Source of the DNA: Methanolinea sp.
GTDB taxonomy: Archaea; Halobacteriota; Methanomicrobia; Methanomicrobiales; Methanospirillaceae
Assembly: GCA_024518585.1 (NCBI GenBank)
Contig: JANIHI010000001.1
Span: forward strand, 160,483-224,482
DNA: 64,000 bases
Direction: 5' to 3'
Below the pieces are notes generated by a model. The model saw only the letters and a program-made list of their open reading frames with translations, had not been told where the DNA came from and searched no databases. Of this stretch, positions 42,313-53,899 are shown in pieces. Both the position numbers and the translations under genes were made by a program. The stretch's first letter is position 1. Every line of letters starts with the position of its first letter.

Positions 42313-42473
42313 GTGCCCCGCCGGGATGAGAAAAGACCCCCCCTTCCCGGCCAAAAACAGGATGGAAAAAATGCATTCACGCACGGGAAAATCCTCACCG
42401 GGATGCCTGCCGGGGGAACGGGAACAGTTTGATACCTTTATATGGCAACCCGGCACACATACTCCCTTATCCC

Positions 42474-43958
42474 ATGCCGTCCCGACGCTCCGATGAGGCC
42501 CTCTCCGAGGTCATCGGGTTCATCCTGATCCTTGCACTTATCGCAGCACTTGCGTCTCTCTACCTCACCTATGTCGTCCCTGCCCAAGGGAGGGAACTTG
42601 AAATAAAGCACATGGCACAGGTAAATGACCAGTTTCTCCAATACAAGACGTCAATTGATTCGCTCTGGATCAATGGCCAGGAGAATGTCCCGATTTCGAG
42701 CACGTTCACGCTCGGCACGGTGACAGGCCTTACGCAGGGGGCCTTCGTCATCCCCATCTTCCAGCCTTATCCCTCGAGCGGGATGATGGTGGTAAATGGG
42801 AGGGTAGAAAACATCACACTAAGTACCAATGTATTGACAATCGGGTTTCCTGGAGGATCGATCCCAAATTTGAATCCAGTCCAAGAGAATGCCGATCACC
42901 TCTATGTCCAGTTAATGACTTCAGACACCTCAAAAGGTGGGGGGCTCGTTTTAGTTCCCGATAAAGGTAACTGGACAATATGGCTGAATGTGACGAGAAC
43001 GGTAAATCCTGGCTCCAATTCTCAGGTGACTGTTCCACCATTCCCAACTCCCACTACCTCTCAAGCTTCCATAAGCTGGACCGAGTTGCAAACATGGATA
43101 AATAATAATCTCAATAATGCGGGAGGCTGGATATCTCAACTCCAGTCAGGTTTATCACAAACAACCGGTTTTTCTCCTTCTCTGACAATGACACTTTTTA
43201 AAAATAATAATACTGTTTTTTCAGGACTGCCACTTATATCGAACCTCCAGAATAATACATGGTATACTGTTGATATTCTGGATGATGCGTATGGGTTACG
43301 AGATCAACTTGAGTCCTCCTACACGGTAGTGATTCCCAAATCCACAAGCGATTGGATAAGCTCCAGATATCCTGCCGCTACAGGATACCAGGCTAAATCC
43401 CTCATTCTGAACCATTCTTTGGGCTCCCTCGAGTTCCGTTCCACGAATAACTACTGGATACAACAGAATTACTATTACCAGCAGGGCGGGGTTTTCCTCG
43501 AACAGCCGGATGGAAAGGTGGCAAAAGTCGTTCCTCTCATCAGTGTGACCAATAAAAGTGGTATTCCCACCATCAGATATGTCGATATTTTTATGGAGGG
43601 TTCGGGAAACATCGGTGGCACCTCACCGGTCCAGGTTATTTCGGTTCTCTCATCTGTAGAAAAAAACAGGATTAACGGCGAAAAACTTGCCCAGGGAATT
43701 CCCAATGCCATGAATGTGACAATAATCATTTCTGCGCAGGATGCCTCCACCGCATGGATGTGGAAACAGACCTTCTCCCGGATCAGGCAGGCAGCTTTAG
43801 ATGAAAATTTCCCTGCTGAGTGGATATCTGCACCATCCCAAACCGGAAACACAGTTCAATTCACCGTTCGTCACCCTGCTAATCAATATTCACTATTCCT
43901 TGACTATACCCGCGTCGACCTGGCAGTCGATCTCCAGTCGGTGGCCATTCCAGCATGA
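42474..43958 (+). CDS. Large pilin-like surface protein with type IV pilin N-terminus
   Basis: MPSRRSDEALSEVIGFILILALIAALASLYLTYV, then long extracytoplasmic region; TATA-like ctttatatgg upstream. Confidence 0.8.
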   Translation: MPSRRSDEALSEVIGFILILALIAALASLYLTYVVPAQGRELEIKHMAQVNDQFLQYKTSIDSLWINGQENVPISSTFTLGTVTGLTQGAFVIPIFQPYPSSGMMVVNGRVENITLSTNVLTIGFPGGSIPNLNPVQENADHLYVQLMTSDTSKGGGLVLVPDKGNWTIWLNVTRTVNPGSNSQVTVPPFPTPTTSQASISWTELQTWINNNLNNAGGWISQLQSGLSQTTGFSPSLTMTLFKNNNTVFSGLPLISNLQNNTWYTVDILDDAYGLRDQLESSYTVVIPKSTSDWISSRYPAATGYQAKSLILNHSLGSLEFRSTNNYWIQQNYYYQQGGVFLEQPDGKVAKVVPLISVTNKSGIPTIRYVDIFMEGSGNIGGTSPVQVISVLSSVEKNRINGEKLAQGIPNAMNVTIIISAQDASTAWMWKQTFSRIRQAALDENFPAEWISAPSQTGNTVQFTVRHPANQYSLFLDYTRVDLAVDLQSVAIPA

Positions 43959-44356
43959 ATACCAGGTTTGAGCATGAGAATGCTGTTTCTGAGATCCTCG
44001 GTGCACTTCTCCTCATTGCAGTCATCAGCCTTGCAGTCAGCATCATCGGGGTGTCAATCCTCTCCCATGTCAATACCTCTTCTGTCCCTGCCGTCTCTTT
44101 CGTGATCACGAATCAGAGTGCCACTATCACCGTTCTCCACGGGGGTGGAGACACACTCCCTGCCGGTTCCTACAGGATACTCATCGATGGTTCGGACCGG
44201 ACTGGAGAGTTCGAGCCGCTTCCTTCAGATACCCCTTTTATCCCGGGAACTGCCCTTACCTACCAGGGTCTTTCTTTTCCCCGCACTATTATGGTTCTGT
44301 ACCGTGGACCAGACGGGAGAGAGACTTTGCTCGTAGAGAAGATATTCTCCTGGTAA
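43955..44356 (+). CDS. Archaeal type IV pilin N-terminal domain protein
   Basis: ENAVSEILGALLLIAVISLAVSIIGVSIL followed by HGGGDTL module. Confidence 0.88.
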   Translation: MNTRFEHENAVSEILGALLLIAVISLAVSIIGVSILSHVNTSSVPAVSFVITNQSATITVLHGGGDTLPAGSYRILIDGSDRTGEFEPLPSDTPFIPGTALTYQGLSFPRTIMVLYRGPDGRETLLVEKIFSW

Positions 44357-44451: not shown

Positions 44452-46194
44452 ATGGTGTCAGTCGTGAATGAAAATCCTACCCAGGCCGTCTCCGAGCTGA
44501 TCGGGGCAATCCTCCTCGTCGGTCTCGTCATAACCGCCATGGCAATCGTGGCCGTATTGGTATTATCCAATCCTCCTCCGGAAGAAGTACCCCACCTTTC
44601 TTCTCTTGCAAGCAATACGACCAATTCTATCCGGCTTTACCATACCGGGGGGGATGAGTTGAAAGAAGAGCTGACGACGATCACCCTCAATAATGGTCCT
44701 GAAGTTCCCCACTCAAAAATAAGACTGATTAAAGAGGATGGGACGACTGAAAGTGCACCATGGGATATCACGAAGACACCCTGGACAGTCGGGACAGTCC
44801 TGGTTCTCGATACTTCACCGGATGTACCTCAGAGCGTTACAGTCATGTATAGAGGACCTACGTCCCAGCACCTCATCCTGACGACTTCATTCATCGCCGG
44901 CACTGGTCTTGGCACACCGACACCGACTTCATCCCCAACACCGACAACAACTGCAACACCAACCCCTACTGCATCCCCGACGCCGACTCTATCCCCAACA
45001 CCGACAATAAATCAAACCACTACCCCTACTGCATCCCCAACGCCGACTCTATCCCCAACACCGACAACAACTGCAACACCGACTCCAACACCGACACCAT
45101 CCTGTGGCACAATATCTGGGATAAAATACAACGATATCAATGGAAATGGTAAGCGAGACCCGGGAGAGCCTGGATTGCCAGGGTGGACGATGCAATGCTT
45201 CAACAAACAGCAAGGAAATTGGGTTTTAATACAGGAAAAGACCACAAATTCAAGTGGTTTTTATATCTTTACAGGATTGCAGTATTTCCAATCTGCCGAA
45301 GATTACCAGATCAGGGAAATAATTCCTGCCGGTTGGATACCAATTGATCCACCTAATGGGATATCACGTTCTTACACACTCAACAACCCGCATTGCTACG
45401 AAACAGACGTAAATTTTGGCAACCAGCAGGTGTTACCGCCAACGGCAGATTTCACCGCCTCTCCAACCTCTGGTTACGCTCCCCTCTCCGTTCAGTTTAC
45501 AGACACATCCACAGGTAACCCGACTCAATGGCAATGGGATGTCAATAACGATGGAATTGTGGACTACACCGTTCAGAACCCGATGCACGTATACGCCATT
45601 CCTGGTACTTATTCGGTCAGGCTCACTGTATCAAACCCGGGAGGTTCGGACACTCGGATAAAAACAGGATATATTACAGTGAACGTACCCCAAACAACCA
45701 ACATTTATTTGGTTGCCAACAAACCCGGCAGTCTCCAAGAAGGAGGGTACATGCAGTTCCGTGTCACCGGTCCATACTCGTACATAAAGCATGGAAATAC
45801 ACGCTACAACCTCAATATTGGAGATGGTGTGAGACTCGAGATTACATCTGACGGAACAGGAAATATCTATGCAACATCATCGACGGTGAACGATTTCAGG
45901 TTCAATAATGTCAGATTAGTTCTCAATGGTGTCGACATGGGAACAAAGGATATCGGGGGAGGGGATATATGGGTCAGCGGGTACGATTCCTACCTGTCCA
46001 CACTGACACTGATCGTTCCGGCCAAGAATGAATGGACCCAGCTCACTGTCAATGGTGTCACGGTTATATTAGGATCTGATTCACGAGAGATACGCATATT
46101 CAACCTTTGTCCCGATACCTGGGGTGTCATGAACCTCAATACCCGGAATGATGTCTTTTACAGTGGCGGAGCAACGGGCTATCAGCTGACGTGA
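44452..46194 (+). CDS. Type IV pilin N-terminal protein with TP-rich linker, SdrD/Cna-B-like domain, PKD domain and new C-terminal domain
   Basis: [91 protein letters not shown]. Confidence 0.85.
44931..45083 (+). repeat. 60-bp in-frame tandem repeat encoding a [15 protein letters not shown] linker
   Basis: Aligned copies beginning at 44941, 45001 and (partial) 45061 differ at few positions. Confidence 0.9.
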
Positions 46195-46212
46195 ACCTCA
46201 ACCAATTCAGGC

Positions 46213-47466
46213 GTGATTATGGATCTCCTTCTTTTTCAAAAAAAAAGGACTTTTATCATTTTATTCGTGGTATCTGCCATCATCATCAGCATTCTTGGTG
46301 TTGTCATCCTCCATACCCACCCCAGAACCACCTCCACCAACCTCACCCTCACCATCTCGGGAAATACTGCCCTCCTGACCCACACCGGCGGAGATCCCCT
46401 CCCCTGTGACAGAGTGACTGTCCTCCTCGACGGGGAACCCCTCCCACTCGCCCTCGCGGGGACTGACTGTCCCTGGTCGATCGGCGAAACCCTCGCTGTC
46501 CCACTCGGCCCCGGTGACAGTCCCCACAGTATCAGCGTGGTTTATGCCAAAGGAGATACCCGGCAGGAGATCGTGCGTGCAGATATTCCCGGGCTGCCGG
46601 CCGGTGCACCGACCCCCGTCACTTTACCGGAGACCATTGCCACCACTGCTCTCCCAACGCCGTCCCTGACCCCGGCGTTGACCCTCCCCCCTACCCCTGC
46701 ATCTCCTCCCGGTCCCCCTGTCGCCTCCTTCAACGCCACCCCGAGATCCGGGCCGGTACCCCTCGCGGTCCAGTTCACTGACACATCAACCGGGGTCCCT
46801 TCCCGGTGGACATGGTCTTTTGGCGACGGAAAGACCTCTTCACTGCAGAACCCCCTGCACACGTATACCCGGGAAGGGACATATCCCGTCGGCCTGACCG
46901 TGGAGAACGAGTACGGCGGCCATACGAGGGTCAACCAGGGGTACATCACCGTTACTGCAGCGGGTTCAAGAGAGGTCTACCTCGAGGCGGGGAGGGATGC
47001 ACGCGTCTGTCCGGGAGGATTCCTTGAGTTCGGGGTGACAAGAGAACCGTCCCGCATCAGGGTCGGGGGAAAGATCATTGATATCCCGGCCGGTGCCCGG
47101 GTCCGCCTCGACCTCCCCCTCGGTGGCAAGGGCAAAGTGTCCATCCGCGACGACCAGGTAATTGATTTTTCCTTTGACAGTGTCACCCTCTCCCTCGATG
47201 GAGAACCGGTCGCCCAGGGGCTTGTCAGGGACGTCTCTATCCAGGGGTACGACTCTCTCATATCGAGCCTTTGCCTCTCGGTATCTGGAGGAGACGGAAA
47301 AGTCCGGATCCTGGAAGGGGGGGTTTTGGTCGGCATTCCGGACGAGAGATCTCCCGTGGTGCTCACTTCGCTCCGTCCCGGGAGTTCCGGTGCCATGACC
47401 CTGGACTGTTCCCGGGAGGGATTCGTATCTTTCGGGGGCAGAGTCACAGACTATTCCTTTTCGTGA
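46213..47466 (+). CDS. TM-anchored PKD surface protein with HTGGD module and shared C-terminal domain
   Basis: N-terminal [50 protein letters not shown]. Confidence 0.82.
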   Translation: MIMDLLLFQKKRTFIILFVVSAIIISILGVVILHTHPRTTSTNLTLTISGNTALLTHTGGDPLPCDRVTVLLDGEPLPLALAGTDCPWSIGETLAVPLGPGDSPHSISVVYAKGDTRQEIVRADIPGLPAGAPTPVTLPETIATTALPTPSLTPALTLPPTPASPPGPPVASFNATPRSGPVPLAVQFTDTSTGVPSRWTWSFGDGKTSSLQNPLHTYTREGTYPVGLTVENEYGGHTRVNQGYITVTAAGSREVYLEAGRDARVCPGGFLEFGVTREPSRIRVGGKIIDIPAGARVRLDLPLGGKGKVSIRDDQVIDFSFDSVTLSLDGEPVAQGLVRDVSIQGYDSLISSLCLSVSGGDGKVRILEGGVLVGIPDERSPVVLTSLRPGSSGAMTLDCSREGFVSFGGRVTDYSFS

Positions 47467-47630
47467 GGCAGGCTGGAAACCTACTCCTGGCCCGGGTGCA
47501 ATCCCCCCGGGGCTGTCCCCACTCTCCTCCCAGGCCTCCCTTTGCACGGAAAATCTTTGGAATTTTTAGGATACATTGATATAGGGACAGGAGAGAAGAC
47601 TTTTAAATACCGGATGAAAGGGCCGTTTTG

Positions 47631-49196
47631 ATGCGGCTAAGAGCCTCGGTATCCCACATAGTGACGCGGGTTGAGAAAATGGATCGGGAATCTGGAATTG
47701 CAAAAAATATCCTCCTGGCCCTGGTTGCTGCCATTGCAATCATCGTGGTGGTCATTGTCGCAGTCATGATTGTATTTCCACCACAGCCGGATGTTATACC
47801 GAAGTTTCAAGCCAATATCGAACGCTCTGGAAATACCGTTTACATCTACCATGACGGGGGCGATCCCCTCCAGAGCAGCAGGACCCTGGTCCGGGTAAAC
47901 GGTGTCACGGTCCCGCCCTCTTCCATCTCCTTCCTCCACGCCCAGGACTGGCCCTGGACTGTCGGAAAAACCCTGCGGATCCAGTACGAGGGGCCTGGCA
48001 GCCCGGACCTCGTCGAAATCGTCTATTCGGGGTCCAAGGGTGAAGTGATCCTCTTCTCATCGCAGGCGCCAACAGCTTCACAGACACTGATCCCCGTGAC
48101 AACAGTCCAAATGGTCACCCCCACGGTCACTGTGACCCCATCTGTCACCGGTCCTGCCGTTTCCGCAAGTCCAACACCTGCTCCGGTGCGTCCCTCCATT
48201 CCCCAACCGCCCCAGGCCGGGTTCACGGCCGACCCAAGGACCGGCCAGGCACCTCTCATTGTCCGGTTCACTGATACGAGCACAGGGGTCCCCACCTCCT
48301 GGTTGTGGAACTTTGGTGATGGAGAGACATCGACAGAGCAGAATCCGGTCCATACGTATAAAACTCCCGGGACATACTCGGTCGCACTCACCGTCAACAA
48401 CCAGTTCGGAAGCGGGCAGAAGGTTGAAAAGGACTATGTAGCCGTCGGGACGGTCCCTGTTGCACAATTTGCTGCAATCCCTTCCGAGGGGGAGTCCCCA
48501 CTTTCCGTCCAGTTCAATGACCTTTCAGGAGGAAATCCCTCGGCATTTTCCTGGGACTTTGGTGATGGGTCCTGGTCCACCGAGAGAAACCCCACCCATA
48601 CCTACACCAGGCCGGGGACATACACAGTCACCCTGGCGGTGAGCAACCCGTTTGGATCTGATACCCGCATCCAGAGCGGTGTCGTGAAGGTGAGCGCGCC
48701 GAAAGTCGTCGATGTATCCCTCACGGGAAGCCGTAACGGTCTCCTCTCCACCGGCTACCTCCAGTTCCTGGTCACGGGGGAGGGTGGCTGGGTCAAGATC
48801 GCTGGTTCCACGTATCCGTTCTCCCCAGACGACCAGGTCCAGGTCTTCATCGACAACGCCGGGAGTGGAATGGTTGACGTGAATGCAAATGGCATTTCAG
48901 GGCTGCGGTTCGATTCCGTCCGGATGTTCGTGAACGGGAAACATGTCCGGAGCGGTATCGTAACGGATATGAGAGTCCCCTCGTTTGCGGGACTCTCCTC
49001 GACCCTGACTATCACGATCCTGCCGGAAGACCAGACCATGGTCCTCTTCATCAATTCATCCAGGATTATTCCCGGTTCCGGCCAGAAAGTCGTCCTTGGA
49101 AACCTCTGCCAGAACTCCGGTGGACTGATGAACCTCCAGTTCAAGCCTGGTGGGCTCGAATACCGGGGTGGGGCACGGTCCTTTCGCCTCGAGTGA
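47631..49196 (+). CDS. TM-anchored surface protein with two PKD domains and shared C-terminal domain
   Basis: N-terminal TM, YHDGGDPL, two PKD units (WLWNFGDGETSTEQNPVHTY; FSWDFGDGSWSTERNPTHTY). Confidence 0.85.
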   Translation: MRLRASVSHIVTRVEKMDRESGIAKNILLALVAAIAIIVVVIVAVMIVFPPQPDVIPKFQANIERSGNTVYIYHDGGDPLQSSRTLVRVNGVTVPPSSISFLHAQDWPWTVGKTLRIQYEGPGSPDLVEIVYSGSKGEVILFSSQAPTASQTLIPVTTVQMVTPTVTVTPSVTGPAVSASPTPAPVRPSIPQPPQAGFTADPRTGQAPLIVRFTDTSTGVPTSWLWNFGDGETSTEQNPVHTYKTPGTYSVALTVNNQFGSGQKVEKDYVAVGTVPVAQFAAIPSEGESPLSVQFNDLSGGNPSAFSWDFGDGSWSTERNPTHTYTRPGTYTVTLAVSNPFGSDTRIQSGVVKVSAPKVVDVSLTGSRNGLLSTGYLQFLVTGEGGWVKIAGSTYPFSPDDQVQVFIDNAGSGMVDVNANGISGLRFDSVRMFVNGKHVRSGIVTDMRVPSFAGLSSTLTITILPEDQTMVLFINSSRIIPGSGQKVVLGNLCQNSGGLMNLQFKPGGLEYRGGARSFRLE

Positions 49197-49358: not shown

Positions 49359-52300
49359 TCAGAGCTGCTGGGTAAGATCTTTCAGCCTCTGGGAGACAAA
49401 ATCGACCAGTTCCTTTGACTCGTTTCTGGCATACTGAAGGAACCCCTCGTATGCATCAACAGCCTCCTTTGTCATTTCCAGCTTCTCGTACGCGAGTGCC
49501 TTGTTGAGGAATGCCCGGGCATACTGCGGGTTTGCGGAGAGTGCACGGTCAAACTCGTGGATTGCTTCCCTGCACATGTTCCGGTTGTAATAGATATTCC
49601 CCATGTTGTAGTAGGCTTCTGCCAGGTCGGGCCGGAGCGCCACCGCATGAGAGAAGTCTGAAATAGCCTCTTCGGTCAGGCCCTTCTTTCCATACTCGAT
49701 CCCCCGGTTATAGAAGGCTATGGCATTATGGGGGTTGATCTCGATAGCCCGCGAAAAGTCTGAAATGGCCTCGTTATACAGCCCAAGGGCTGCATGGGCA
49801 TTACCCCTGTTATTGTATGCCCTCTCGTTCCCTGGCGAAAGGTCGATGGCCCGGGTATAGTCGGCTATCGCGTCCTTGTACCTCTCGAGCTTCTGGAATG
49901 CGACTCCCCGGTTATAGTACGCCTCTGCGAGGTCAGGCTTAATTGCGATGGCATGCGAAAAGTCCTGCATCGCCTGGTCGATTTGTCCCTTCTTCCCGTA
50001 CTCGATCCCCCGGTTATAGTAGGCAGTCGGGTTATCGGGATTAATCTCGATTGCCCGGGAAAAATCTGCGATAGCCTCGTCATGCATCCCCCGTGCAGCA
50101 TACGCATTGCCCCGGTTATTGTATGCTTTCTCGTTCTGGGGGTTAAGCTCAAGTGCAACCGTGTAGTCCGCGATTGCCTGGTCGAGGCTCCCCTGCTTAT
50201 GGGAGGCCACTCCCCTGTTGTAATAGGCCTCTGCAAAATCAGGTCGGAGAGAGATTGCCTTCGTCAGGTCACCGATGGCCTCCGGAAGCATCCCCCTCTC
50301 CCCGTATTCTATTCCCCTGTTATAGTACGCTGTGGGATTTTCTGGGTTTATCTCGATTGCCCGGGAAAAATCTTTCATCGCCTCCTCTGAAAGTCCCATT
50401 CCTGCATAGACGTTCCCCCTGTTTATGAACGCCTTCTCGTTTGCCGGGTCAATCTCGATGACCCGTGAATAGTCCCTGAGAGCTTCCTCCATCATTCCCA
50501 GGCGCTCGTAGAGGAGTCCGCGGGCCAGGAGTATGCCTGTGTCTCCGGGTGAAATCTCGAGTGCCCGGGACAGATCCTGCACTGCCTCGTCGTATCTGGC
50601 CTCCCTGCTGAACTCCGTTGCCCTTGCCTTGTATACCTCAACCGCCTGGGAATTCAGCCGTATGGCATTGGAATAGTCCTCTATGGCCTTTCCGCTCTGC
50701 CCACAACGGCTCCTCTCATCGCCACGGCGAACATAGGCCGGAAAGAGCCGGGGATCGATCTCGAGAGCCCGGGAAAAATCAGCGATTGCCTCCTGGGGTT
50801 GCCCCAGCACCGAGTACTGGATACCCCTGCAAAGGTACGCCTGGGCATGTGCCGGCCGGAAAGTGATAACACGGGTCAGGTCATCGATGGCGTCTTGGGT
50901 GCGGCCCTGTTGAGCGTGCAGGACTGCCCGCCGGAAGAGGGCCTCTGCGTTCTCGGGATCAAGTTCTATTGCCCTTGAAAAATCTGAAATTGCATCCGGA
51001 ATCTTATGGAGACGGCTGTACTCGATTCCCCTCTGGAGGTATATGGCTGAATTGGATGGTTCAAGGGCAAGTGCCCTGCTGAGGTCTTCGATTGCCTTCT
51101 CGCTCTGGCCTTTTCGGGAATACTGCAATGCCCGGGAAAGCAGCGCCTCATGGTAATGGGGTCTCAATTCAAGGGCGCGTGACAGATCCCGGATTGCCAT
51201 CTCGGAGAGACCGATCCGGGAAAATTCGCATCCCCTGTGGTAGAGTGCCTCGGCAAAGCCCGGGCGGATTTCAAGTGCTTTCGTGAACTCCGAGATTGCC
51301 TGGTCAGAAAGGTTGGCCTTCTGGTAATCGAGTCCCCTCGCGAAGCATGCCTCGGCAAACCGGGGGTTGATCTTCATGGCCCTCGTGTAATCATTGATCG
51401 CGTCCTCCACCCTCCCGAGCCGGTCATACTCGTTCCCCCGGTTGTAATAGGCTTCGATGTAGCCGGGATCAATATCGATTGCGTGGGAAAAGTCCTCGAT
51501 TGCCTTCTCCGACAGCCCGAGGCGTGCGTATTCAAGTCCACGCCTGTTGTACAGCTCGGGGTCATCGGGAGACCGTTCGATTTCCTGCGTGATCTCACGG
51601 ATCTGGGGGTTTTCCCCCGGCTCTTCCTGCACGGGAAATGGACGCGCTTCTTCCGTTGCGGGTGCACTCTCTCCCTCTTCCAGGACTTCTTTTTCCCCTT
51701 CGACAACCGGCTCTTCCTCCCCGGCAGCTCTTCCCTGGTCACCGGGGAACCCACGTGAAAAGATCTCGAGTGCACGGGAAAACTCTGCAATGGCCTCGTC
51801 AAAGCGTCCGAGACGGTTGAAGAGGACTCCCCTGTTGTTATAGGCCTCAACGAAGCGCGGGTTTATCTCGACTGCCTTTGCGTAGTGTTCAAGAGCGGTT
51901 TCAACAAGGCCGAGGCGACTGTATTCGACTCCCAGGTTATTGTGAGCCTCTGCATACCGCGGATTTATCTCAAGGCAGTGGAGGTAGTCAGCAATCGCTG
52001 CCTCTGACTGCCCGAGCTTCCCATAGGCAAGACCCCGGTTGTAAAGGATATCGGGGTTTTTCGGGTTGAGCTCGAGTGCTTTCGTGTAATCGGCCAGGGC
52101 ATCCTCCAGGCGACCGACACGGGTGAATTCGATGGCCCTGTTAAAGAGGGCCTCGGTGAAATGGGGATCACGTGCAAAAGCCCTGGTGTAATCCTCGATG
52201 GCTCTCTCATGGTCACCCCGGCGGGCAAAGATAACCCCCCTGTTATTGTAGGCCGGCGCATACGCGGGGTCGATACTGATTGCCTGCGAAAAGTCCTCGA

Positions 52301-52673
52301 TGGCACGGTCGTCCTCCCCGATGCGGGAATACTCGATGCCCCTGTTATAGTACGCTTCAATAAAGTCCGTGTCGGATTCAATTGCCTTGGAAAAATCCTC
52401 TATTGCTTTTTCTGGCTGGTTGAGGAGGGAGTACGCGATACCCCGGTTAAAGAATGCCTCGGAAAAGTGGGGATTGATGCGGAGTGCCGTGGTATAATCA
52501 TCAATCGCTCCCTTGTAGTCATGCTTTCCTGCCTTCGCAACACCCCTGTTGTGGTATGCCTCTGCATCCTGGGGGTTTATCTCGATGGCATGGGTATAAT
52601 CAGCAATTGCCTCGTCGAAAAGGCCCTTTTTGTGGTAGGCAATCCCGCGGTTATAATAAATCTCACCATCCAT
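49359..52673 (-). CDS. Very long TPR-repeat protein (~30 TPR units)
   Basis: Near-continuous 34-aa AIxDFSxAIEIxPxxxEAYYNRGxxY units over 1104 aa. Confidence 0.95.
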   Translation of the reverse strand: MDGEIYYNRGIAYHKKGLFDEAIADYTHAIEINPQDAEAYHNRGVAKAGKHDYKGAIDDYTTALRINPHFSEAFFNRGIAYSLLNQPEKAIEDFSKAIESDTDFIEAYYNRGIEYSRIGEDDRAIEDFSQAISIDPAYAPAYNNRGVIFARRGDHERAIEDYTRAFARDPHFTEALFNRAIEFTRVGRLEDALADYTKALELNPKNPDILYNRGLAYGKLGQSEAAIADYLHCLEINPRYAEAHNNLGVEYSRLGLVETALEHYAKAVEINPRFVEAYNNRGVLFNRLGRFDEAIAEFSRALEIFSRGFPGDQGRAAGEEEPVVEGEKEVLEEGESAPATEEARPFPVQEEPGENPQIREITQEIERSPDDPELYNRRGLEYARLGLSEKAIEDFSHAIDIDPGYIEAYYNRGNEYDRLGRVEDAINDYTRAMKINPRFAEACFARGLDYQKANLSDQAISEFTKALEIRPGFAEALYHRGCEFSRIGLSEMAIRDLSRALELRPHYHEALLSRALQYSRKGQSEKAIEDLSRALALEPSNSAIYLQRGIEYSRLHKIPDAISDFSRAIELDPENAEALFRRAVLHAQQGRTQDAIDDLTRVITFRPAHAQAYLCRGIQYSVLGQPQEAIADFSRALEIDPRLFPAYVRRGDERSRCGQSGKAIEDYSNAIRLNSQAVEVYKARATEFSREARYDEAVQDLSRALEISPGDTGILLARGLLYERLGMMEEALRDYSRVIEIDPANEKAFINRGNVYAGMGLSEEAMKDFSRAIEINPENPTAYYNRGIEYGERGMLPEAIGDLTKAISLRPDFAEAYYNRGVASHKQGSLDQAIADYTVALELNPQNEKAYNNRGNAYAARGMHDEAIADFSRAIEINPDNPTAYYNRGIEYGKKGQIDQAMQDFSHAIAIKPDLAEAYYNRGVAFQKLERYKDAIADYTRAIDLSPGNERAYNNRGNAHAALGLYNEAISDFSRAIEINPHNAIAFYNRGIEYGKKGLTEEAISDFSHAVALRPDLAEAYYNMGNIYYNRNMCREAIHEFDRALSANPQYARAFLNKALAYEKLEMTKEAVDAYEGFLQYARNESKELVDFVSQRLKDLTQQL

Positions 52674-52984
52674 CAGCAGGAGTCCCCCGTAAAAAAGTTA
52701 ACCAGAAACACTCTTGTTTCTACCCCTCGTACCCATGTACACCGCCCACCATTAATTATATTCCCCTTCGGGGGAGCACACCACCACCATTCCGTGGCCT
52801 TTCACGAACCGGTTGGTTCAAAAAAATATATAGATGTCGAGCCCTCACTACACTCTGCAATCTTTTCCATCAGCCCGAGAAAACAGTGCTGAGCAGCATG
52901 ACTCCCCACCGGGAGAAGGGGTTCGTCGTGGTCATGATGGAGAGTATGATGGAGCATATCAGAAGCCACACCGAGGAGAAACAC

Positions 52985-53899
52985 ATGAATGGTCAAAAAT
53001 GCCAAATGATCCTGTTCTTTATTCTCTGCATGGGGGTCATGTCACTCCCCGCCATGGCAAATACCCAGACTAATATCATTTACACGTCAGATTTTTCCCA
53101 GAACCCGGGATGGACCACGAACAGTCCCACGCGGTACTTCTGGGACCCCGCCCGCGAGATGTTTCATTTCAAGACTGAAGGGGGGACAAACGGGTACGCC
53201 TTTATCCCCATCCAGTACGATGATCAGTCATTTACCCTTGATTATGACGTGATCCTGCTCGAATCCCAGCCAAACAGTGCATTTCGATTTGGTCTTACGA
53301 GTTCGGAGATGGACTATACCCGAGGAACAAATGTCCTTTCGGCACTTGAAAACGGGAAATACGGACGCCTCTTTTCGTTGCGAGTAATTGATCAGAATAA
53401 CCAGATGCGGGAGACGACGAGTTACTACACATCCTATTGCGGCGAAATCCCCGGGTGTACCACTGTCCAGTTCAAGGTGAATACAACCTACCACGTGACT
53501 GTCCGGTACAACAGGGAACTGCAGAATGCCGATATCAAGGTAGTGGAGAAGGAGACGGGGGAGCGGGTCTGGGGTTACTACCTGCCCGTCGGGAAAGACC
53601 TCCTCTACATGGACCGCCTCGCGATCACGACCAAGGGTGATTACTCCTTCGGGCCATTCTCCGAGGGCTACATAGATAATGTCGAAATGGTTGCTTTTGT
53701 CCCACCTACCCCAACGAAACCTGCACCCACGCCGTCAGCAACCATGCCCCCGGCTACCCTCCCAACAACGGCCGTGGTCACCGCGACCCCCCAGACACCC
53801 ACCCCGACACAGTCCGGACCCGTCCTCCCATCCCTGCCCCTTGCCGCGCTGGCTCTCGGTGCCATTGGACTCGTCCTTGCAAACCGGCGGGGCCGCTGA
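52985..53899 (+). CDS. Secreted LamG/jellyroll-like protein with TP-rich stalk and C-terminal TM/RR tail
   Basis: Signal peptide MNGQKCQMILFFILCMGVMSLPAMA; C-term SGPVLPSLPLAALALGAIGLVLANRRGR. Confidence 0.7.
   Translation: MNGQKCQMILFFILCMGVMSLPAMANTQTNIIYTSDFSQNPGWTTNSPTRYFWDPAREMFHFKTEGGTNGYAFIPIQYDDQSFTLDYDVILLESQPNSAFRFGLTSSEMDYTRGTNVLSALENGKYGRLFSLRVIDQNNQMRETTSYYTSYCGEIPGCTTVQFKVNTTYHVTVRYNRELQNADIKVVEKETGERVWGYYLPVGKDLLYMDRLAITTKGDYSFGPFSEGYIDNVEMVAFVPPTPTKPAPTPSATMPPATLPTTAVVTATPQTPTPTQSGPVLPSLPLAALALGAIGLVLANRRGR

Follow-up and report, generated by a model that had tools for sequence, protein, structure and literature searches.

The window analysed here is a 64,000-nucleotide stretch of a Methanolinea sp. 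genome (contig JANIHI010000001.1 of assembly GCA_024518585.1). Three consecutive genes in this window encode surface proteins, here called A, B and C, that share a C-terminal segment which we named CTD (C-terminal domain). By all libraries searched the CTD is a new domain family, and it is found on a recognisable class of proteins. It is a distal, globular and non-enzymatic-looking domain of pilin-type surface proteins.

Three pilin-like proteins with a common C-terminal domain

In the original prediction, which was made from the letters of the sequence, the proteins at 44452, 46213 and 47631 were proposed to end in homologous segments of about 165 residues behind PKD domains. The three ORFs (44452-46194, 46213-47466 and 47628-49196 on the forward strand) are present and Pfam confirmed the PKD domains in front of the CTDs (Table 1). 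Homology was established for the last 166 (A), 166 (B) and 163-165 (C) residues. In BLASTP, the CTD pairs A-B, A-C and B-C matched with E values of 7e-20, 6e-19 and 4e-12 and with identities of 28, 30 and 26%, respectively, over 141-159 residues. When any single CTD was used as query, exactly the other two were retrieved among the 224 window ORFs of at least 90 aa (E 2e-11 to 2e-17). The profile match of the protein A CTD reached 2.1e-81. Neither a three-sequence nor a 55-sequence profile matched any of 2,503 reversed-ORF decoys, and a search of the source genome (1.78 Mb) with the three-sequence profile revealed no fourth copy. The nearest named genomes are the Methanolinea metagenome-assembled genomes L033 and L034, with 88-89% identity in the CTD of protein A, which assigns the window to a Methanolinea-like member of Methanoregulaceae. 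For protein C the predicted ORF stands, but translation probably starts at ATG 47679 and not at 47628/47631, because the orthologues (L033:6988, L034:6991 and L036:1721) start at the equivalent MDRES.

The three proteins have more in common than the PKD domains and the CTD to which the earlier description was limited. Each of them also contains one N-terminal membrane segment, predicted as a helix and not followed by any other, and a beta-rich Pilin_N module in which a HxGGD-L ... PW--G pattern is shared by all three. With a curated cut-off of 25.2 bits for Pilin_N (PF07790), protein A (49.6 bits) and protein C (26.6-26.7 bits) scored above the threshold, while protein B was below it in one scan (22.5 bits) and borderline in another (25.7 bits). 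The matches of B and C are weaker than that of A and lie at the same position. By crude pattern matching, a class III prepilin motif is clear in A, degenerate in C (SGIAKNILLAL) and absent in B. A, B and C are type IV pilin-like proteins, a feature that had been overlooked.

Table 1. CTD proteins of the window, their domains and adjacent genes (positions within the window)
Feature	Position	Strand	Basis
Pilin-like protein, 495 aa from ATG 42471 (ORF opens at 42429); counterpart gene in L048	42471..43958	+	Weak DUF7289/Pilin_N-type N-terminus, matches below curated cut-offs
Small type IV pilin-like protein, 133 aa, without CTD	43955..44356	+	Pilin_N, 49 bits
Protein A, 580 aa: prepilin-like N-terminus, Pilin_N, Thr/Pro linker, SdrD_B, PKD, CTD	44452..46194	+	Pfam
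Pilin_N (PF07790) of protein A	44482..44691	+	Pfam
SdrD_B-like domain (PF17210) of protein A	45124..45339	+	Pfam
PKD of protein A	45439..45681	+	Pfam
CTD of protein A, 166 aa	45694..46191	+	BLASTP, profile match, AlphaFold2 (pLDDT 97.1)
Protein B, 417 aa: N-terminal membrane anchor, degenerate Pilin_N module, linker, PKD, CTD	46213..47466	+	Pfam, full-length model
PKD of protein B	46729..46953	+	Pfam; Foldseek to solved PKD domains, rmsd 1.2-1.8
CTD of protein B, 166 aa	46966..47463	+	BLASTP, profile; also within full-length model (blocks of pLDDT 84-95)
Protein C, 505 aa from ATG 47679 (ORF opens at 47628): membrane anchor, Pilin_N module, linker, two PKD, CTD	47679..49196	+	Pfam
Two PKD domains of protein C	48219..48668	+	Pfam
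CTD of protein C, 163 aa	48705..49193	+	BLASTP, profile
TPR protein, 1104 aa, no membrane segment, convergent with the CTD gene run	49359..52673	-	Neighbourhood; putative functional link

Distribution, history and predicted structure of the CTD

The three-sequence profile was searched against 199 genomes of the order Methanomicrobiales, after which the loci were fetched and the domains re-extracted iteratively. This yielded 97 non-redundant domains, and 55 diverse ones were aligned into a second profile. With the three-sequence profile the CTD was detected in 74 of the 199 genomes and in 24 of the 38 genera of the order. In a phylum-wide sample of 397 genomes, the 55-member profile matched only in Methanomicrobiales and in one further family (f8), which is probably the Methanosarcinaceae. 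Among 240 genomes of the class of this family, Methanosarcinia, 27 matches were found in 5 of 39 genera, all of them in f8. These lineage limits hold within the phylum, as lineages outside it were covered by a strict pattern scan only. Using tblastn, one partial match at chance level (E 0.07) was obtained in phages and none in plasmids.

Carriers of the CTD are about 340 to 2,185 aa long. In 104 of 111, the only membrane segment lies within the first 60 residues. Two regular expressions for the prepilin motif gave discordant counts (51/114 and 32/111 carriers) and were therefore replaced by a count of Pilin_N, which is present in 58 of 69 diverse complete carriers (E 0.001). In the same 69 proteins, PKD occurs in 47, SdrD_B in 10 and DUF7289 in 3, and domains of the lectin or adhesin type are represented by Laminin_G_3 (5), PA14 (3), GLEYA (3) and Malectin (2). 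The counterpart of protein A in L037 (L037:1758-3287) has lost the PKD domain and retains SdrD_B and CTD, which indicates that PKD is an exchangeable spacer. The CTD family thus extends over the order and can do without PKD, something that had also escaped notice.

The CTD ends no more than 10 residues from the C-terminus in 100 of 112 proteins. The exceptions include several carriers with tails of 83-385 aa. For instance, in the Methanosarcinia loci L107, L108, L109, L118 and L110 the CTD is followed by 215-385 residues, containing one Laminin_G_3 domain in L108 and four in L110. In carriers of the type seen in L107-L110 and L118, the outermost module is a known lectin-like domain. In L019 the CTD is internal and flanked by PKD domains, and four proteins (L020, L057, L061 and L062) have two copies. 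The Methanosarcinia carriers have a single CTD copy per genome.

In a tree of 73 rows, the CTDs of A, B and C fell into separate clades. The C domain was placed among sequences from other genera of this family (SH-aLRT 95), the B domain likewise (96), and the A domain together with G053, from another genus (100). B and C are nearer to each other than either is to A. Since each of the three CTDs is closer in the tree to orthologues of other genera than to its two neighbours, the duplications predate the genus, in agreement with the old duplications that had been suggested. The L037 counterpart of protein A carries a CTD from a different clade than that of window protein A. The suggestion that the domain is conserved under selection was likewise borne out: dN/dS values of 0.10-0.37 in the CTD, calculated against the L033/L034 orthologues, point to purifying selection. 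Only this direction is safe, because synonymous sites are near saturation in the comparisons of the window with L033. Protein B evolves fastest.

No named domain had been recognised in the shared segments, and a Pfam match was sought and is absent. When the 55 CTDs were compared to Pfam, the best E value was 0.0032 and no family appeared in more than three members. Against NCBIfam the best value was 0.0039, with single members only, and 17 CTDs gave zero matches in PHROGs. A sequence search of the PDB with the 55-member profile found nothing better than 0.027. Protein A alone matched 31 residues of a designed protein (7ong; 3.3e-5). We took this match as chance and rejected it, because no stretch passes on its own and in view of the best value of the 55-member profile.

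The structure prediction and Foldseek search proposed earlier were carried out on the CTD. An AlphaFold2 model, built from 17 sequences of the window and related loci, was confident (mean pLDDT 97.1, pTM 0.90) and is all-beta, with about 17 short strands and no helix. Foldseek returned 479 matches in the PDB at E<=10 and none at E<=0.001, and a comparison with viral models gave no significant match. The top non-significant matches were mostly galectins and carbohydrate-binding modules (CBMs), with TM-scores of 0.11-0.20 and rmsd values of 13-18. These matches, and those to viral proteins, were rejected since the structures do not superpose. As a positive control, a full-length model of protein B (pLDDT 79.9, pTM 0.50) matched solved PKD domains with an rmsd of 1.2-1.8 and target TM-scores of 0.82-0.86. 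Because the PDB search gave no significant match while this control superposed, the CTD has no close solved relative by Foldseek. Judged from the predicted model against solved PDB structures and viral models, it is possible that the CTD represents a new fold. It was also considered as a divergent PKD domain, and this was rejected, as none of the 55 CTDs has a PKD match and no PKD is among the Foldseek matches listed.

Conservation is seen at hydrophobic residues of the strands, at glycines in turns and at D44, N78-G79 and S102. Strongly conserved polar residues are D44 (78%), N78 (84%) and S102 (95%), and no conserved His, Cys, Glu or Lys is present in the CTD alignment. A weak internal repeat relates the two halves of the domain, residues 20-61 (window 45751-45876) and about 104-149 (window about 46003-46140), with hhalign P values of 0.0008-0.002 and a probability of only 13-26%. 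The repeat possibly reflects an ancient duplication within the domain.

Pilus machinery and the candidate role of the CTD

In L108, the genes of a 599-aa ATPase (T2SSE, PilB3_N, PilB3_C), a T2SSF/TadC protein, the CTD pilin and a DUF7289 pilin follow each other on the same strand, and the same four-gene order was found in L107, L109 and L118. In L104 the CTD is located on a DUF7289-type protein, which has another DUF7289 protein and two Pilin_N proteins as neighbours. The source genome encodes T2SSE ATPases and T2SSF proteins, with 4 and 5 matches, respectively, as well as a prepilin peptidase that matches both Peptidase_A24 and Arc_PepC_II. On its contig C16 an ATPase gene and a T2SSF gene are near each other, the ATPase with a weak PilB3_C match. 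This machinery is encoded away from the three CTD genes. It has been described that euryarchaeal type IV pili consist of an ATPase/TadC module, PilA-type major pilins and the arCOG02911 minor pilin, that the pilins are often encoded in trans and that adhesins are further components; PKD is not mentioned in the main text of that work (Makarova et al. 2016, PMC4858521). The position of the pilin-like genes apart from the ATPase in the source genome fits such pilins in trans (PMC4858521). The architecture of the carriers and their link to pili are well supported.

The CTD carriers resemble archaeal type IV pilins, such as those of the Haloferax PilB3/PilC3 pili (PMC4858521), in their N-terminal membrane helix and beta pilin module, and also in the PilB3-type ATPase and TadC genes beside the CTD gene in L107/L108/L109/L118 and the machinery in the source genome. 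Ordinary archaeal pilins, however, are short, whereas the carriers add PKD/SdrD_B stalks and the CTD, and the prepilin motifs of B and C are lost or degraded. DUF7289 (PF23960) proteins are neighbours in the same gene runs and provide the N-terminal part of three carriers (e.g. L104), but this family models a different ectodomain and no CTD member matches it. With archaeal surface PKD proteins (PF18911/PF00801; S-layer protein 1l0q) the carriers share the PKD modules, but the CTD itself is not a PKD domain by sequence or fold and persists without it. DNRLRE (about 200 aa) and PEGA (about 70 aa) are likewise domains of methanogen cell-surface proteins, described in Methanosarcina (PMC2447325). 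The CTD differs from both in the length described there, and no Pfam model matched it.

We propose with moderate confidence that the CTD is a mobile, all-beta distal domain of archaeal type IV pilin-like proteins and most likely their recognition or adhesion head. A single N-terminal membrane helix of the prepilin type (clear in A, degenerate in C, lost in B) is followed by a small pilin beta-module, and a Thr/Pro-rich linker with zero to many PKD (or SdrD_B) modules would act as a spacer that sets the reach. Placed farthest from the membrane, the CTD would project from the cell and make the contact, most likely by binding a surface ligand, e.g. a glycan, the S-layer or a partner cell. Protein A would most likely be processed and become part of a PilB3-type pilus, either built into it or at its base or tip, while B and C would most likely stay membrane-anchored relatives that display a head of this kind. 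PilY1-type tip adhesins of bacterial type IV pili, with their large non-pilin head on a pilus, offer a comparison of how this may work, an analogy made for archaeal adhesins before (PMC4858521). The difference is that the CTD head is fused to the pilin itself.

Three points favour a binding head: the end domain is retained although the spacers vary, the conserved residues do not suggest catalysis, and lectin-type modules occur in some carriers. A ligand-binding role would also be compatible with the distal placement and the pilin anchoring. Several observations weigh against the proposal as a whole. The CTD is not universally outermost, since Laminin_G_3 follows it in Methanosarcinia carriers such as L107/L108. 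The L019 carrier has an ordinary signal peptide-like helix and no pilin module, and protein B has no recognisable prepilin motif and fell below the Pilin_N cut-off in one scan. Moreover, no ATPase/TadC gene is present beside the three CTD genes in the window, and the conserved residues of the CTD are mostly structural, with no conserved surface patch identified from the alignment, which was not mapped onto coordinates.

The main alternative is a role in assembly, in which the CTD would dock pilin-like proteins to each other, to a pilus tip complex or to the S-layer and the three paralogues would form one heteromeric cap or anchor. We regard this as possible, if on the improbable side. It would be consistent with the three co-directional paralogues that stay together in several genera (L033, L034, L037, L038, L040, L043 and L048), with the conservation of core and turn residues, with the proteins that have two CTD copies and with the purifying selection. 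However, a CTD hetero-complex is not required, because the Methanosarcinia carriers have only one copy per genome, and L019 contains a CTD without a pilin module.

Alternatively, the CTD might be a diverged carbohydrate-binding beta-sandwich, a far relative of the lectin/CBM fold (galectin, CBM40, CBM66) that has drifted past recognition by sequence and Foldseek. The galectins and CBMs that dominate the top non-significant matches and the lectin-type domains of some carriers point in this direction. This is nevertheless unlikely, as no match reached E 0.001 and the best ones in the PDB did not superpose, whereas PKD did so in the same pipeline. A more specific version of the binding head, to which we give still less weight, is that the CTD is an undescribed fold serving as the receptor-binding head of methanogen-specific fused pilin-adhesins. 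The three paralogues would then be three heads, e.g. for syntrophic partners or for mineral or biofilm surfaces.

A C-terminal sorting or processing signal, with a role like that of the cleaved C-terminal domains of bacterial secretion systems, would explain why the CTD lies at the very C-terminus in 100 of 112 proteins. We consider it very improbable: the CTD is a full globular domain of 165 aa (pLDDT 97), has 215-385 further residues, among them Laminin_G_3, behind it in several Methanosarcinia, lies between PKD domains in L019 and is doubled in four carriers. A cleaved sorting domain was rejected, as the CTD is neither strictly C-terminal nor always single. An enzyme domain (glycosidase, protease or similar) fits the size of the CTD and the hydrolases that PKD-bearing surface proteins often carry, but it is the least credible reading and was rejected, since no enzyme family matched (Pfam, NCBIfam) and D44, N78 and S102 are the sole strongly conserved polar residues.

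The CTD family, unnamed in the scanned libraries, covers an order of methanogens as well as one family from a second class and is tied to the machinery of type IV pili. The attachment of methanogens to surfaces and to syntrophic bacteria is still poorly understood, and the CTD, which marks the probable contact end of pilin-like proteins, is a concrete target. Gene deletion is practical in Methanosarcinaceae-type genomes, where the CTD is single-copy. A CTD entry in Pfam would re-annotate many proteins for which the PKD repeats are probably the only feature known at present.

Genes next to the CTD genes

A TPR cluster is found in 10 CTD loci, with TPR genes homologous to that of the window near the CTD genes. 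In L074 (L074:7300-9420), TPR, three predicted membrane segments, PKD, SdrD_B and the CTD are combined in a single protein. This fusion hints that TPR proteins are intracellular partners of CTD proteins.

At about 52900-53896 (+) the window encodes a protein with a signal-like helix, a Pro/Thr linker and a C-terminal membrane segment. It has no Pfam match, and homologues are found beside CTD genes in 8 loci. In 13 loci the gene of a putative Era-like GTPase, named from reading the sequence, is near the CTD gene. In addition, 18 loci from many further Methanomicrobiales genomes (L064, L077, L045, L047, L049, L065, L066 and others) carry the CTD gene at a conserved location, next to those of a putative radical SAM enzyme and a putative cis-prenyltransferase, both named in the same way.

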